From a virus, in the IMG/VR virus record IMGVR_UViG_3300037882_001375, positions 1-34,055 of that record: DNA of 34,055 nucleotides. The stretch is one strand, 5' to 3'. The position numbers were made by a program, and so were the translations under genes. Positions within the stretch are counted from its first letter, which is position 1, and each line of letters begins with the position of its first letter. Below, in pieces: positions 25,931 to 32,911 of the stretch. The notes below the pieces were generated by a model that did not search any database, was not told where the DNA came from, and was given only the letters and a program-made list of their open reading frames with translations.

Positions 25931-26379
25931 TTTCGTGGAACTTTCTGTCCGCATTTTTCACAAACCAAAAATGGCGCACTAACCGATAACTGGTGTGCAA
26001 GATTTTTTGTTTCTGCGATGACATATTCAATGTTTTTATATGCTTCATCGGCTAAAACCCTTGGATATCTAGGGCTCAAATCCCCGCTATGAGCAGTGTC
26101 AAATCCAAACCACCACCCGCCGAGATTTGAGATTGCATCGCCTTCGCCTGCATATGTAAGACCGCCATGAACGGATATTTCCGATGCTTCGTGAGCCGCC
26201 CCATATCCCGACTTGTTGAGGTGGTGATAAGTAGGAATTTGAACGTATCCATTAATTCCGCCATGGGGACCACGGATAACAACACAGTTGAACCTTGTTT
26301 TGTCATCTACAAATTCCATGTGGTCGGGTTCGTTGTCCCATTCACCGCGCGGCCAGCTAGATTTATCAACTTTCTTCAC
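25927..26379 (-). CDS. Conserved phage hypothetical protein
   Basis: A 150-residue protein with WPRGEWDNEPDHMEFVD, IRGPHGGINGYVQIP, YGAAHEASEISVHGGLTYAGE and GWWFGFDTAHSGDLSP, followed by a YKNIEYVIAETKNLAHQL helix and an end CEKCGQKVP. I have seen the HGG-LTYA and FDTAHSGD motifs in many phage early proteins, but no function is known to me. His and Asp clusters could bind metal. It starts at GTG with AGAGGATAGC and a GTGA overlap with ninB. Confidence 0.72.
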   Translation of the reverse strand: MKKVDKSSWPRGEWDNEPDHMEFVDDKTRFNCVVIRGPHGGINGYVQIPTYHHLNKSGYGAAHEASEISVHGGLTYAGEGDAISNLGGWWFGFDTAHSGDLSPRYPRVLADEAYKNIEYVIAETKNLAHQLSVSAPFLVCEKCGQKVPRK

Positions 26380-26774
26380 GCTGCTATCCTCTCATTATGA
26401 AATACAACGCCACGTTCATCACCATAAGCCTGAATTGAGGTGATCAAATCCGCCATCTCGCGCTTGCCTAGGTCTTTCGAGAAAAAACCTGTTGGAAACC
26501 ATGATTTTCCATCTAGCGTTGGCAGAACCTGAGTATCATGGCCAAGCTCTTTCATGAAGATGCACTTCCATTGTTCGTCGTTAAATGTTGCGCCGTTTAT
26601 TGTGCAGCCAGCTTTGACAATATCACCTAGCATTGCCCACATGCGGTCTGATTGTTCGGTTGAGCGTTTTTGCTCTTGAAACAATACGCGATAACCGATG
26701 GGCAATGTGCGCAGAAACTCCATTGCACGGGCGCGAACGTCTTCGCTGATTATGACAAAGGGGCGGCGCGACAT
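26376..26774 (-). CDS. ninB: NinB-like recombination protein
   Basis: A 132-residue protein of the NinB family (lambda Orf). It binds single-stranded DNA and SSB and helps load annealing proteins. Typical features are EQKRSTEQSDRMWAMLGDIVKAG near 34-56, the EQWKCIFMKELG segment near 67-78, then LPTLDGKSWFPTGFFSKDLGKREMADLITSIQAYGDERGVVF. The gene looks full length. It lies downstream of erf and ssb, a natural recombination set. TAATG coupling joins it to the 43-residue gene before it. Confidence 0.87.
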   Translation of the reverse strand: MSRRPFVIISEDVRARAMEFLRTLPIGYRVLFQEQKRSTEQSDRMWAMLGDIVKAGCTINGATFNDEQWKCIFMKELGHDTQVLPTLDGKSWFPTGFFSKDLGKREMADLITSIQAYGDERGVVFHNERIAA

Positions 26775-26905
26775 TATTCAGCCCACTCCTCGCCTTCAAA
26801 TTTTAGAGCGCTTTCAAGTTGATCATAGCAAAGGCCGTAAACGCACGTTTTCATTGCAATTTTAATCAGTCCTCTAGTAATGTATGAACGGATGCGATTT
26901 TTCAA
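26774..26905 (-). CDS. Small hypothetical protein between ssb and ninB
   Basis: A 43-residue protein from a TTG that overlaps the SSB stop as TTGA, with AGAGGTTC about seven bases before it. Sequence starts KNRIRSYITRGLIKIAMKT (basic helix) and has CVYGLC and an acidic end (KFEGEEWAE). The stop shares a base with the ninB ATG. The exact fit in the operon supports it; function unknown. Confidence 0.6.
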   Translation of the reverse strand: MKNRIRSYITRGLIKIAMKTCVYGLCYDQLESALKFEGEEWAE

Positions 26906-27360
26906 AATGGAACCTCTGAATCTAAATCACGCGCAAATGATTGCTTGACCTGATTTGCGGCCCGCGTGAATTGATCGACAGTTTCGCTCTCAGATTTAGC
27001 GCCATCCGCCTTGCCGCCAAGCATGGTCAAAGTGCCGTTGAAGCCCTGCAACACAATTTCAGTGCTGTACTTCTCAACGCCATCTTTATCCGTCCATTTG
27101 CGTGTTTGGAGCTGGCCCTCAACATAGACGGTTGAGCCTTTTTTGAGGTACTGCTCGATGACTTTGTTTATGTTTTCGTTGAAGGAAACTACCCTATGAT
27201 ACTCTGCTTTCTCTTTGCGCTCACCTGTCGCTTTGTCCTTCCATGTTTCATTCGTAGCTAGTGACAAGTTCGCTATGGACTTCCCATCTTGTGAACGCCT
27301 GATCTCTGGGTCGTGTGTACAATTCCCGATTAAAATAACCTTATTGACCGAACCTGACAT
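26902..27360 (-). CDS. ssb: Single-stranded DNA-binding protein
   Basis: A 152-residue SSB of the bacterial OB-fold type: SVNKVILIGNCTHDPEIRRSQDGKSIANLSLATNE, AEYHRVVSFNENINKVIEQYLKKGSTVYVEGQL, TEIVLQGFNGTLTMLGG. The C-terminal tip DLDSEVPF matches the acidic tail that recruits partner proteins. It protects single strands during phage replication and recombination. It sits next to erf and ninB, and its ribosome site (GGAGGG) lies within the end of the HNH gene. Confidence 0.96.
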   Translation of the reverse strand: MSGSVNKVILIGNCTHDPEIRRSQDGKSIANLSLATNETWKDKATGERKEKAEYHRVVSFNENINKVIEQYLKKGSTVYVEGQLQTRKWTDKDGVEKYSTEIVLQGFNGTLTMLGGKADGAKSESETVDQFTRAANQVKQSFARDLDSEVPF

Positions 27361-27847
27361 ACCTGCGGCCCTCCTTAATTGCTGTAATAGTGTGGTAATC
27401 TATATCTTTTTGGGTCGCGATTTTTCGTGGAGAATGCCCCGCCGCTAGGCGTTGACGAACGTCTTGAACTACGGCCTCAGTAAGGTGTTTTCTGTTGCCG
27501 CCAGCGGCTCTCCCTTTCGCTTGACAATCAGCCATGTTTTCACTTCTTGTCCCAACAAATAAATGATCGGGATTGACGCAATAACGATTGTCGCAGGTGT
27601 GACACACATCCAATCCGGCAGGTACGTCGCCTATGAAAAGCTCGTAAGACCTGCGGTGAGCTGTGATATTAAAGGTCTTCATCCGAATGTTGCCGTAGCC
27701 GTTACCTTTGCCCGCTCCCTTCCAAATCCAACATTTTTCAGTGGTGAAACCTTGCGCGTCAACTTTCTGCAAAAACGAAGAGTAAACATTAGCAATAAAC
27801 TTTCGAGATGTGCCTTTGGGATTGCTTTTAATCGTTGCGCTGCTCAT
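27341..27847 (-). CDS. HNH homing-type endonuclease
   Basis: A 168-residue protein of the HNH_3 type: CWIWKGAGKGNGYGNIR with TAHRRSYELFIGDVPAGLDVCHTCDNRYCVNPDHLFVGTRSENMADC, including the HTCDN..CVNPDHL core. The C-terminal 45 residues (EAVVQDVRQRLAAGHSPRKIATQKDIDYHTITAIKEGRRY) look like a DNA-binding HTH of homing nucleases. Such free-standing genes can spread into related phages. It overlaps ssb by 20 bases and erf by four, so it seems well settled rather than a recent insertion. Confidence 0.88.
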   Translation of the reverse strand: MSSATIKSNPKGTSRKFIANVYSSFLQKVDAQGFTTEKCWIWKGAGKGNGYGNIRMKTFNITAHRRSYELFIGDVPAGLDVCHTCDNRYCVNPDHLFVGTRSENMADCQAKGRAAGGNRKHLTEAVVQDVRQRLAAGHSPRKIATQKDIDYHTITAIKEGRRYVRFGQ

Positions 27848-28599
27848 TTGTCTTTTTTCACTTCTTTTTTGATTTCTGTTTCGTGCGCATAGCGAAGCGC
27901 CCTTACGCGCTCCGAGTTGAACAAATACGCGGCTGGTCGTTCTGATTCCGAAAGCCGTTCAATGCGTCCAGTTTCCTCTGCCTTACGCCCCCAATCAGTA
28001 AGCTCTCTCAGAGTTGTACACTCTCGCATTTCAGCTTTGATGGCCCAAAGCTCTTGACTTTCTTCAATTGGAGTATCTGTTATTTTGCGCGAAACGGTTG
28101 CAACGCCATCATCATCATCTTCGCCGCTCGTCAAACCTAGTGCCGCTAATATGCTGTAACGCCTTCCGTAGCTAACAGCGGAACCCATGCCTTGCGCGTC
28201 TAGTTTTGATAAGGGAACCTCTACGGTGGTGCGCTCTCCCTGTCCCGTTGCGCTATGAATGAAATCTGTGTAAACCGGAACCGCGCGGCCTTTAGTGCCG
28301 TTAGTGTCGAGTTGCCAAGCATGATCAGCGCCTTGCCTAATGCGAATACCGTGATTGATTGCAATCGGTTTCACAACAGCCATAATGGCCTTTAAGCTGG
28401 AGTATTTTCGTTTCTGAGAACCTGTTATTGTGGCCTCGGCGTCTTTCCCAATGGAAACGGGCAATTCTTTATACATGCCAAACAAAGCCGTTTCTAAAGC
28501 GTTTCCCGCAGGGCCAAACTTTTCCGTTTTAATAGCAGACGGAGGCAGCAAAAGCTCCCCTGTCTCAGCATCAAACAATTCAGGCGTTACGGCGTCCAT
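27844..28599 (-). CDS. erf: ERF family single-strand annealing protein
   Basis: A 251-residue recombinase that anneals complementary strands and can circularise phage DNA by end homology. The ERF core is clear: KRKYSSLKAIMAVVKPIAINHGIRIRQ near 63-88, then GSAVSYGRRYSILAALGLTSGEDDDDG near 139-165, followed by a charged helical end. The ATG at 28599 has AAGGAAG upstream; one at 28638 would extend into the small gene before it and is less likely. With SSB, NinB and RusA it forms a full annealing and resolution set. Confidence 0.9.
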   Translation of the reverse strand: MDAVTPELFDAETGELLLPPSAIKTEKFGPAGNALETALFGMYKELPVSIGKDAEATITGSQKRKYSSLKAIMAVVKPIAINHGIRIRQGADHAWQLDTNGTKGRAVPVYTDFIHSATGQGERTTVEVPLSKLDAQGMGSAVSYGRRYSILAALGLTSGEDDDDGVATVSRKITDTPIEESQELWAIKAEMRECTTLRELTDWGRKAEETGRIERLSESERPAAYLFNSERVRALRYAHETEIKKEVKKDK

Positions 28600-28619
28600 T
28601 ATGCTTCCTTCAAGACGGG

Positions 28620-28688
28620 TCACTCTAAAACTCCCCATGCAATGTTGATAAATGCAAGACTGATCAGTATTCCCATGGCGATGCTCAT
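28620..28688 (-). CDS. 22-residue membrane peptide candidate
   Basis: A tiny ORF coding MSIAMGILISLAFINIAWGV plus LE, one hydrophobic helix. AAGGGG stands about seven bases before the ATG, and the ORF fits between two genes without overlap conflict. It may be a real small peptide or only a leader for erf. Confidence 0.4.
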   Translation of the reverse strand: MSIAMGILISLAFINIAWGVLE

Positions 28689-30655: not shown

Positions 30656-30882
30656 TTTCCACCGCCTGCGAAGGCTGCAAATGGCACGGCATTAGCCGCG
30701 TATATCGTGAGAGTGGTGCTTGCTACAGGCGCAAGGCGTTCACAGACGGTACGATTCGACGTCCACCTTCAGACGGGTTTTCAACTGAGATTGGAACCGG
30801 AAATATTCACCTGATTGATAGTCGCGTTGAAGCCGATCATTGCGGGCCGGATCGCCGGAATTATGTTGCGAGGGCAGTATGA
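30652..30882 (+). CDS. Small Cys-bearing hypothetical protein
   Basis: A 76-residue protein starting at a GTG that overlaps the RusA stop (GTGA). The N-terminus has CEGC at residues 6-9 with a Cys at 24 and another near 64 (ADHCGPDRRNY), possibly one zinc site. ISTACEGCKWHGISRVYRESGACYRRK is followed by TDGTIRRPPSDGF. Similar small proteins with Cys at both ends are common in phage early regions. Its stop overlaps the methyltransferase ATG. Confidence 0.62.
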   Translation: MISTACEGCKWHGISRVYRESGACYRRKAFTDGTIRRPPSDGFSTEIGTGNIHLIDSRVEADHCGPDRRNYVARAV

Positions 30883-31625
30883 CAGAAAAATTGCGCGTCT
30901 TAGATTTGTTTTCTGGAATTGGCGGTTTCTCTCTTGGCCTTGAACGTACAGGCGGATTTGAAACCGTAGCATTTTGCGAGATCGAAGAATTTCCCCGCAA
31001 AATATTAGCGAAACATTGGCCAAAGGTGCCTTGCTATGACGATGTTAGAACTATTTCCAGACACCGATTTGTCGCTGACGGGGTTTTTGCAAACGTCATT
31101 ACAGCAGGGTTCCCCTGCCAAGATATTTCCGCAAGTGGATTGCAGAAAGGCATTGGCACAGAAACTAGAAGCGGGCTTTACAGGCAAGCGATTAGACTTG
31201 TTGCTGAAATACGCCCCATCATTGCAATCTTTGAAAATGTCGTCCGGTTTCTCAGTGGGCCAAAAGAAGCGCCTGGCGCGTGGTTCTGGCAATTTCTCAG
31301 CGACTTGGCCGAGATCGGGTATGATGCTGAGTGGCACTGTATTACCGCTGCCAGCATTGGAGCGCCGCACGAGCGGGACCGCGTTTGGATTATTGCCTAC
31401 CCCGATGAAACACAACTCGAAAGAGGGCGCATATCCAGCAGAATACACCAGGAACACACCAACTTTAGCAACGCACGCTGGGGGCAAGATAAACCCGGAG
31501 TGGTCAGAACACTTGATGGGGTTCCCAATTGGATGGACAGAGTTGGAACTTTAGGAAACGCCGTAGTTCCACAAATCCCTGAATTAATCGGAAACGCAAT
31601 ATTAGCAGCGAGGGCAGGGGCATGA
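30879..31625 (+). CDS. DNA C5-cytosine methyltransferase
   Basis: A 248-residue enzyme that methylates cytosine in DNA. Conserved motifs in order: I, DLFSGIGGFSLGLE (9-22); IV, AGFPCQDIS with catalytic Cys80; VI, FENV (about 118-121); VIII, ERDRVWIIA (165-173); and X, LGNAVVPQIPELIGNAI (225-241). The target recognition region between VIII and X is very short, a feature of small phage members. It probably protects phage DNA from restriction or adjusts host gene activity. A 172-codon frame is nested inside it. The ATG overlaps the previous stop. Confidence 0.94.
   Translation: MTEKLRVLDLFSGIGGFSLGLERTGGFETVAFCEIEEFPRKILAKHWPKVPCYDDVRTISRHRFVADGVFANVITAGFPCQDISASGLQKGIGTETRSGLYRQAIRLVAEIRPIIAIFENVVRFLSGPKEAPGAWFWQFLSDLAEIGYDAEWHCITAASIGAPHERDRVWIIAYPDETQLERGRISSRIHQEHTNFSNARWGQDKPGVVRTLDGVPNWMDRVGTLGNAVVPQIPELIGNAILAARAGA
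31036..31554 (+). CDS. Nested ORF in the methyltransferase gene, with methylase-associated C-terminal motifs
   Basis: A 172-codon frame wholly inside the methyltransferase gene but in another frame. It has its own ATG with AAAGGTG seven bases upstream. It is not arbitrary sequence: TWPRSGMM (90-97), LPLPALERRTSGTAFGLLPTP (103-123) and GGKINPEWSEHLMGFPIGW (149-167) match the C-terminal part of phage methylase-related proteins as I recall them. The same bases encode DLAEIGYDAEWHC and LGNAVVPQ in the main frame. It could be a real overlapping gene or a family born by overprinting. No expression evidence exists here. Confidence 0.5.
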   Translation: MTMLELFPDTDLSLTGFLQTSLQQGSPAKIFPQVDCRKALAQKLEAGFTGKRLDLLLKYAPSLQSLKMSSGFSVGQKKRLARGSGNFSATWPRSGMMLSGTVLPLPALERRTSGTAFGLLPTPMKHNSKEGAYPAEYTRNTPTLATHAGGKINPEWSEHLMGFPIGWTELEL

Positions 31626-31891
31626 CAAAATCAGACCAAATCCGCGTGTTAAAAAAAGCGCGTCCAGATTTAAAAAACATTGAAATCGCCCGTATCATTG
31701 GGTGTTCACCACCAAATGTCACGCAAGCTCTTTCTCTCATCCCGGTTGTTGCGAGAAATGCACACCACTGCTTAGCCCCCGATGAAATGGCCTTTCTTGC
31801 AAAGGAAGCAAAAGCTCATAACCTGAGCGAGAAGCAGATGGTCGTCGCCTTGTTAAGGGATGCGATAAGTGATGCAATGGAGTGCGCGTAA
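31622..31891 (+). CDS. Small HTH protein
   Basis: An 89-residue protein with an N-terminal helix-turn-helix (about residues 12-40: ARPDLKNIEIARIIGCSPPNVTQALSL) and a helical C-terminal half (DEMAFLAKEAKAHNLSEKQMVVALLRDAISDA). It is probably a DNA-binding regulator or replication accessory protein. It overlaps the methyltransferase by four bases and the next gene by one (TAATG), so it belongs to the same translated chain. Confidence 0.72.
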   Translation: MTKSDQIRVLKKARPDLKNIEIARIIGCSPPNVTQALSLIPVVARNAHHCLAPDEMAFLAKEAKAHNLSEKQMVVALLRDAISDAMECA

Positions 31892-32436
31892 TGACTTGTG
31901 TTGAACCACAATCCCTTGCTGAAATGCAGGCGGCTCACAAGGCCCGTAGAGCGCGGATGTATGCCGCCGCTACAGACGGCCAGAAAAAGCAAGAAACCAC
32001 GTCACGGCTTAAATCTGCAAAGCCTAAGACGTACTGGCGTCCATACATCATGACATGCACTCCGTTGCTTAAGCGAGTGTTGTTGAAATATGAAATCAAC
32101 GCTGCTGTTGAGGGTGAGTCCCGTATTTGCAACGCTATTCTTGACGTTGTTGAAAAGGTTTCTGGGGTTTCGCAACGTCTCATCACATCTCAAAGCCGAG
32201 ATAGTGTCGCAACGTTTTTGCGTCATGTTTATTTCTACCTGTGCAAAAAACACGCAGGACGTAGTTACCCACGGATAGGCAAGCAATGTGGTGGCAGGCA
32301 CCACACAACGGTTATCAGTGGCGTTAGGAAAGTAGCGCGGGCTGTGAAGGTCGGCAGTCCTGACGTTATTGAGCTGATTGAAAAGGTTGAGGCCTACCTT
32401 GGTTTTTCAAGCGAGGGGTTGGGAACGCCAGGGTAA
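31891..32436 (+). CDS. DnaA domain IV-like protein 1
   Basis: A 181-residue protein whose C-terminal half resembles the DNA-binding domain IV of DnaA: AILDVVEKVSGVSQRLITSQSRDSVATFLRHVYFYLCKKHAGRSYPRIGKQCGGRHHTTVISGVRKV. GGRHHTTV corresponds to the DnaA signature G-R-D-H-T-T-V that reads the DnaA box. There is no AAA+ ATPase. The N-terminal half is basic (AAHKARRARMYAAATDGQKKQE...). It may bind a phage origin or compete with host DnaA. The ATG at 31891 shares a base with the previous stop; GGAG lies upstream. Confidence 0.83.
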   Translation: MTCVEPQSLAEMQAAHKARRARMYAAATDGQKKQETTSRLKSAKPKTYWRPYIMTCTPLLKRVLLKYEINAAVEGESRICNAILDVVEKVSGVSQRLITSQSRDSVATFLRHVYFYLCKKHAGRSYPRIGKQCGGRHHTTVISGVRKVARAVKVGSPDVIELIEKVEAYLGFSSEGLGTPG

Positions 32437-32498: not shown

Positions 32499-32557
32499 GC
32501 AGCGGTGTGAAAACAGCACATAACGCAACGTTTCGATAAAGTAGAAAGGGCTTTTTG

Positions 32558-32911
32558 ATGGACGCCGCATTTATCAGGGCACACGCAATTATAGACTACG
32601 CAACAGGAAAGGACGTCGCCTTTGATTCGGCAGACGTTCTTAAAGCCGTCTCTGTCGCGCTAAAGGTTGCAGTGAAGGAATTAACGGGCATTAATCGCTA
32701 CAGGTACATTTCTAACGCACGGCAGATATTTTATTGGGTGTGCCGAAAGTACTTGTCGATTTCATCTTCACAGATAGCCAAGAGAGCGGGGCTAAAAGAT
32801 CACTCCACGGTTTTGCACGGCATCAAAAAAATCGACCGCCTGATCATGGAAAGCGACGTTGCAACGTTGAACAGTATTGCCGCCGTTGAACGCGAGTTAG
32901 CGATCTCTTAA
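32558..32911 (+). CDS. DnaA domain IV-like protein 2
   Basis: A 117-residue second DnaA-like protein: KELTGINRYRYISNARQIFYWVCRKYLSISSSQIAKRAGLKDHSTVLHGIKKIDRL, ending with a helix. GLKDHSTVLHG matches the DnaA signature G-x-x-D-H-S/T-T-V and keeps the Asp that protein 1 has replaced by His. No ATPase part. AAAGGG lies about seven bases before the ATG at 32558. Diverged from protein 1, so the two may read different sites or form a pair. Confidence 0.82.
   Translation: MDAAFIRAHAIIDYATGKDVAFDSADVLKAVSVALKVAVKELTGINRYRYISNARQIFYWVCRKYLSISSSQIAKRAGLKDHSTVLHGIKKIDRLIMESDVATLNSIAAVERELAIS

Follow-up and report, generated by a model that had tools for sequence, protein, structure and literature searches.

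A nested reading frame predicted to supply the missing half of a phage cytosine methyltransferase

Does a long open reading frame lying wholly inside another gene encode a protein of its own, or is it forced open by the gene that contains it? The question is raised by a C5-cytosine methyltransferase (MTase) gene in the viral record IMGVR_UViG_3300037882_001375, of which the whole stretch analysed (34,055 nucleotides) is referred to here as the window. The original prediction, made from the letters alone, described a 172-codon frame within this gene, with its own AAAGGTG site and recognisable motifs. This frame is present exactly at 31036–31554. It begins with ATG, lies in the +1 frame relative to the methyltransferase, and its translation reads TWPRSGMM, GLLPTP and NPEWSEHLMGFPIGW; AAAGGTG stands 7 nt 5' of the ATG. 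The containing frame is called alpha and the nested one beta (Table 1).

The two frames and their surroundings

Alpha encodes 248 aa and matches PF00145 (E = 7e-40) and phrog_363 (2e-66), with the PF00145 match covering only positions 2–170 of 324 in the profile. Beta matches phrog_1008, 'DNA methyltransferase' (E = 2.4e-15), as do 105 of 105 aligned relatives, which agrees with the phage methylase-associated family named for it in the original prediction. The phrog_1008 profile of 329 positions also spans mycobacteriophage gp74-type proteins that include motif X, whereas the window beta ends before this motif. Searches of Pfam and NCBIfam gave no match for the window beta protein, and the beta profile matched no PDB sequence up to E = 10.

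Elsewhere in the window, two adjacent small proteins (31882–32436 and 32555–32911) each carry a Bac_DnaA_C domain (7e-19 and 1.5e-17) without the rest of DnaA, and a recombination block on the minus strand (26376–28638) comprises NinB, SSB, an HNH endonuclease and an ERF annealing protein.

Table 1. Features of the alpha/beta locus, in window positions
Feature	Position	Strand	Basis
Alpha: C5-cytosine methyltransferase, motifs I–VIII and X, without canonical motif IX	30879–31625	+	PF00145, AlphaFold, M.HhaI fold
Beta: nested +1 gene, 172 aa, predicted recognition-region and motif IX subunit	31036–31554	+	Openness, alpha 4-fold constraint, phrog_1008
Putative ribosome-binding site AAAGGTG of beta	31022–31028	+	Read in sequence; start and SD-like sites in relatives
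Alpha catalytic motif IV GFPCQDIS; beta on the same bases GSPAKIF (consensus SPAKTS)	31107–31130	+	Translation, consensus
Beta core motif TWPRSGMM over alpha DLAEIGYDA	31303–31326	+	P92, S94, G95, M96 and M97 nearly invariant (105 sequences)
Predicted target-recognition cassette, encoded by beta; low-confidence linker in alpha	31405–31491	+	Identity to L007–L010, independent variation, pLDDT
Beta motif IX NPEWSEHLMGFPIGW	31492–31536	+	E158, M161, G162 and P164 nearly invariant; in the alpha frame of single-chain relatives
Alpha motif X LGNAVVPQ, beginning at the beta stop codon	31551–31574	+	Consensus; helix 232–247 in model

Openness and selection in the nested frame

One explanation is that beta is a shadow of alpha, its openness and apparent conservation being forced by methyltransferase motifs and codon usage. 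Some beta residues are indeed dictated by alpha motifs, YDDV giving ATGACGATG and DLA.GY giving TWP.SG. We nevertheless consider a shadow ORF extremely improbable, and codon shuffling is the first result against it: the +1 run within alpha extends over 181 codons, compared with a mean longest run of 73 after synonymous-codon shuffling (p = 0.0002). All 80 viral loci fetched by the methyltransferase protein only, and hence blind to the +1 frame, keep this frame open over 151 codons or more (median 215), and none has the stops that the original prediction had named as a refuting result. In the same loci the median is 48 for the +2 frame and 90, 103 and 62 for the three antisense frames. The +1 frame of the viral loci typically ends in LNPxWVEWLMGFPxGHTDL, and the loci fetched by the nested protein are in phase +1 throughout (L003 by profile scan). 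The original prediction had also cautioned that the antisense strand is open here. This holds for the window, where an antisense frame runs for 181 codons from stop to stop, but the shuffling result is marginal (p = 0.034) and the frame is open for at least 150 codons in only 20% of relatives; it is thus not a conserved gene, and the antisense ORF 31005–31487 was rejected as a candidate.

Initiation signals are less uniform than openness. Of 139 relatives, 93 have an ATG within 18 nt of the homologous beta start position, and in 72 a start at that position is accompanied by an SD-like site. About a third have no ATG there, which counts against the explanation that we favour below.

The arrangement extends to bacteria. 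Forty bacterial loci, drawn from Proteobacteria, Desulfovibrio and relatives, Bacteroidota, Bacillota, Planctomycetota, Neomarinimicrobiota and Treponema, match the beta profile and the alpha profile on overlapping stretches, again in phase +1; alpha is split over two frames in two of them (L174 and L190). In 12 bacterial genomes holding such a locus, all 12 alpha-type genes carry beta in the +1 frame (profile scores 122–231 bits), and no beta match was obtained in any of the 11 other C5-MTase genes scanned there. The double coding is therefore specific to the alpha/beta clade rather than a side effect of C5-MTase motifs, contrary to what a shadow ORF predicts. Within this clade, judging by the loci compared, the nested arrangement is ordinary. 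A plasmid search returned nine weak matches. A search of E. coli genomes with the Salmonella phage relative found four chromosomal copies, with an Ea22-like gene under the match in two; EcoHK31I was not identified among them.

Selection on the two frames was examined in 37 independent, non-overlapping pairs of relatives, 70–98% identical. Ahead of beta, alpha 4-fold sites differ at 0.483. The value is 0.210 between the beta start and motif VIII and 0.070 between motifs VIII and IX, and it stands at 0.417 beyond the beta stop. A finer profile gives 0.44–0.53 up to 31022, 0.05 at 31503–31550 and 0.42 from 31551. The limits of the constraint are the start and stop of the beta ORF, which argues against a shadow ORF. 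Synonymous-site conservation, a check that accompanied the original prediction, is thus in strong excess and bounded by the nested frame.

The zone between motifs VIII and IX is the most telling, as the periodicity of its alpha codons is reversed: differences at positions 1, 2 and 3 amount to 0.322, 0.166 and 0.181, and alpha position 1 is the beta wobble position. In the target-recognition (TRD) zone, the amino-acid difference is 0.353 for alpha and 0.227 for beta, and the 4-fold difference 0.069 for alpha against 0.314 for beta. Between the window and L008, the TRD zone has 17, 2 and 3 differences at alpha codon positions 1, 2 and 3, leaving 45 of 48 residues identical in beta and 33 of 48 in alpha; over L007–L010 the figures are 45 of 48 for beta and 32–36 of 48 for alpha. 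Based on the reversed periodicity and the stronger conservation of beta, beta is the functional frame in the TRD zone and alpha merely open, which contradicts a shadow ORF. RNA structure does not explain the zone, since it would not reverse codon periodicity.

What is shown here is that both frames are under coding selection, as judged by substitution patterns, and that the motifs are divided between them. Of the options left by the original prediction, that of a real overlapping gene is supported by the +1 openness, by the synonymous-site constraint and by homologs outside the methyltransferase shadow, which were found for the C-terminal part of beta (gp74-type ORFs and single-chain enzymes). 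By sequence comparison with hundreds of relatives, the nested ORF is a real overlapping gene.

Division of the enzyme motifs and known two-polypeptide systems

Motifs I–VIII and X were found in alpha, which has no canonical motif IX. The beta C-terminus, NPxWxExLMGFPxGW, occupies the place expected of this motif, which as LMGFPIGW is on the small polypeptide only and is nearly invariant. In the single-chain relatives Gordonia phage Leonard gp5, prophi91-1 gp16, CheeseTouch gp88 and RitaG gp71, motif IX stands between motifs I–VIII and motif X of the alpha frame; in the mycobacteriophages Achebe and Catdawg it is carried, with motif X, by a second ORF running past the alpha stop. The two halves are linked to one family by phrog_116 (779 positions), matched by alpha at 204–377 and by the mycobacteriophage beta at 409–489. 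The original prediction missed the most likely role of the nested protein, which is to provide the recognition region and the motif IX that the same enzyme otherwise lacks.

Structure prediction was applied to both proteins. The sequence match of alpha to M.HhaI extends only to motif VIII, and its AlphaFold model (pLDDT 86.8) is confident except at residues 191–230, keeps the motif X helix and superimposes on M.HhaI with Z 26.5 and rmsd 2.5 over 218 residues. Beta alone is poorly predicted (pLDDT 62, pTM 0.26) and confident only at the motif IX end, which would fit an obligate subunit and proves nothing.

The stretch of beta before motif IX varies with little regard to alpha, the correlation between cassette identity and alpha identity being 0.19. 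Extreme pairs combine 95% alpha identity with 17% cassette identity, or 56% with 97%. By this measure, the stretch behaves as a swappable specificity cassette, independent of alpha. A separate observation concerns L214 (1568–3124) and L216 (1497–2771), where tandem LLPTPxxxDxKG units, several per protein and about eight in L216, stand between motifs VIII and IX; they are possibly repeated recognition modules.

The location of the TRD and motif IX in the +1 frame downstream of motif VIII could also mean that a +1 frameshift after motif VIII produces a single chain with motifs I–VIII, TRD and IX, with no separate beta, and single-chain forms do occur in the same clade. A frameshifted enzyme is improbable in our judgement, because the beta constraint begins ~120 codons ahead of motif VIII, at an ATG preceded by an SD site, which a shift product would not need, and because the shifted chain would lose motif X.

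Two subunits find a characterised precedent, overlooked in the original prediction, in M.EcoHK31I. This enzyme recognises YGGCCR and is a relative of M.EaeI. Lee, Kam and Shaw are reported to have described in 1995 that the coding sequence of its small polypeptide lies out of frame within that of the large one, as beta lies within alpha. M.EcoHK31I has been termed a naturally split enzyme (PMC3439449), and a published summary assigns motifs I–VIII and X to its large polypeptide and motif IX to the small one (PMC3404938). Alpha and beta share this layout, a likeness judged by motif arrangement. The same summary places the predicted TRD of M.EcoHK31I on the large subunit (PMC3404938), whereas here evolutionary evidence places it on beta. 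A further difference is that the window enzyme is encoded by a phage, and the ORFs scanned included no recognised endonuclease to partner it.

M.AquI, as outlined in the same source, is a C5 MTase encoded by two genes, whose small subunit provides motif IX as well as the distal variable region (PMC3404938). Its layout is seen within the alpha/beta clade in Achebe and Catdawg. The window locus differs from it, since M.AquI-type enzymes have motifs IX and X on the small subunit, whereas LGNAVVPQ is in the alpha frame of the window and beta is wholly inside alpha. Neither is alpha a single-chain C5 MTase, with motifs I–X and the TRD on one chain, as it is without motif IX. An out-of-frame protein within a phage methylase gene is also known from the hidden HNH endonuclease of the ShiLan domain (PMC11855218); that is an inserted homing element, whereas the window has no insertion and its overlap encodes core methyltransferase motifs. 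A literature search, mostly of open-access papers, found no phage survey of nested C5 MTases. By motif content and frame layout, we assign the locus to the known two-polypeptide C5 MTase class of the M.EcoHK31I type, which occurs far more widely than the annotation of the opened records suggests.

As for that annotation, the deposited records of nested phage loci (L001, L003, L005 and L207–L213) give one frame only, namely beta in Stenotrophomonas SOVA965 and Microcystis Mwe-JY08 and alpha in the others. In the split mycobacteriophage loci, both ORFs are annotated. Because a single frame is usually kept, the nested-type records opened lack half of the enzyme.

Frame switching and the proposed enzyme

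Single-chain relatives from actinophages (L220–L298) retain traces of the nested frame. Over ~50 codons (alpha residues ~118–168 in L222) their 4-fold rates are mostly 0.03–0.15, compared with 0.22–0.33 and 0.51 in the flanks, rates that alone do not separate a peptide from nucleotide-level constraint. Of 43 sequences, 36 share a GTG placed 33 codons ahead of the core motif, preceded by purine-rich SD-like bases in those inspected, and the +1 frame is open over the tested span in all 43. The beta core thus seems to be kept even where alpha itself holds the recognition domain together with motifs IX and X; what is kept may be a peptide, or the leftover of a recent fusion.

That the core is conserved in enzymes whose alpha chain already includes TRD, IX and X would suit a division of labour in which alpha does the methylating and beta has another task, for instance in anti-restriction or regulation. 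We give such separate functions little credence, as motif IX and the variable recognition cassette are on beta and absent from alpha, and beta always accompanies such an alpha.

Close actinophage relatives also differ in where TRD-IX-X is read, some using the alpha frame for it and others the beta frame (L234, L238 and L243 versus L220–L222). This change of frame is a switching between single-chain and split enzymes. The bacterial L205 (3454–4299) has an intermediate layout, in which alpha includes motif IX while the N-terminal part of beta is still open in +1. It is conceivable, though we hold it doubtful, that the N-terminal core of beta is a protein selected in its own right, doing more than complete the recognition domain, and that the clade records enzymes split and fused again and again through frame switching, with the hidden peptide kept.

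Two polypeptides of one enzyme are the reading that we favour. The locus very probably encodes one heteromeric C5-cytosine DNA methyltransferase in two overlapping frames, for which we infer translation of beta, association and activity. Alpha would be the catalytic large domain, which binds SAM and holds the PCQ cysteine, the ENV glutamate, motif VIII and the motif X helix. Beta would be initiated internally at its own SD and ATG and would contribute the target-recognition cassette and motif IX, both missing from alpha, with a disordered alpha linker spanning the gap before motif X. Association of the two would then allow methylation of a specific site. Phage orphan methyltransferases generally protect DNA against restriction, and on this basis the methylation presumably shields the phage DNA from the restriction systems of the host.

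For work on such enzymes, heterologous expression of the annotated alpha alone is predicted to fail, and swaps of the beta cassette are predicted to change specificity. The locus would be an unusually clear case of double coding, with frame-specific selection that can be put to the test, in which two proteins of one enzyme share ~500 nt, an arrangement conserved in phages as well as several bacterial phyla.
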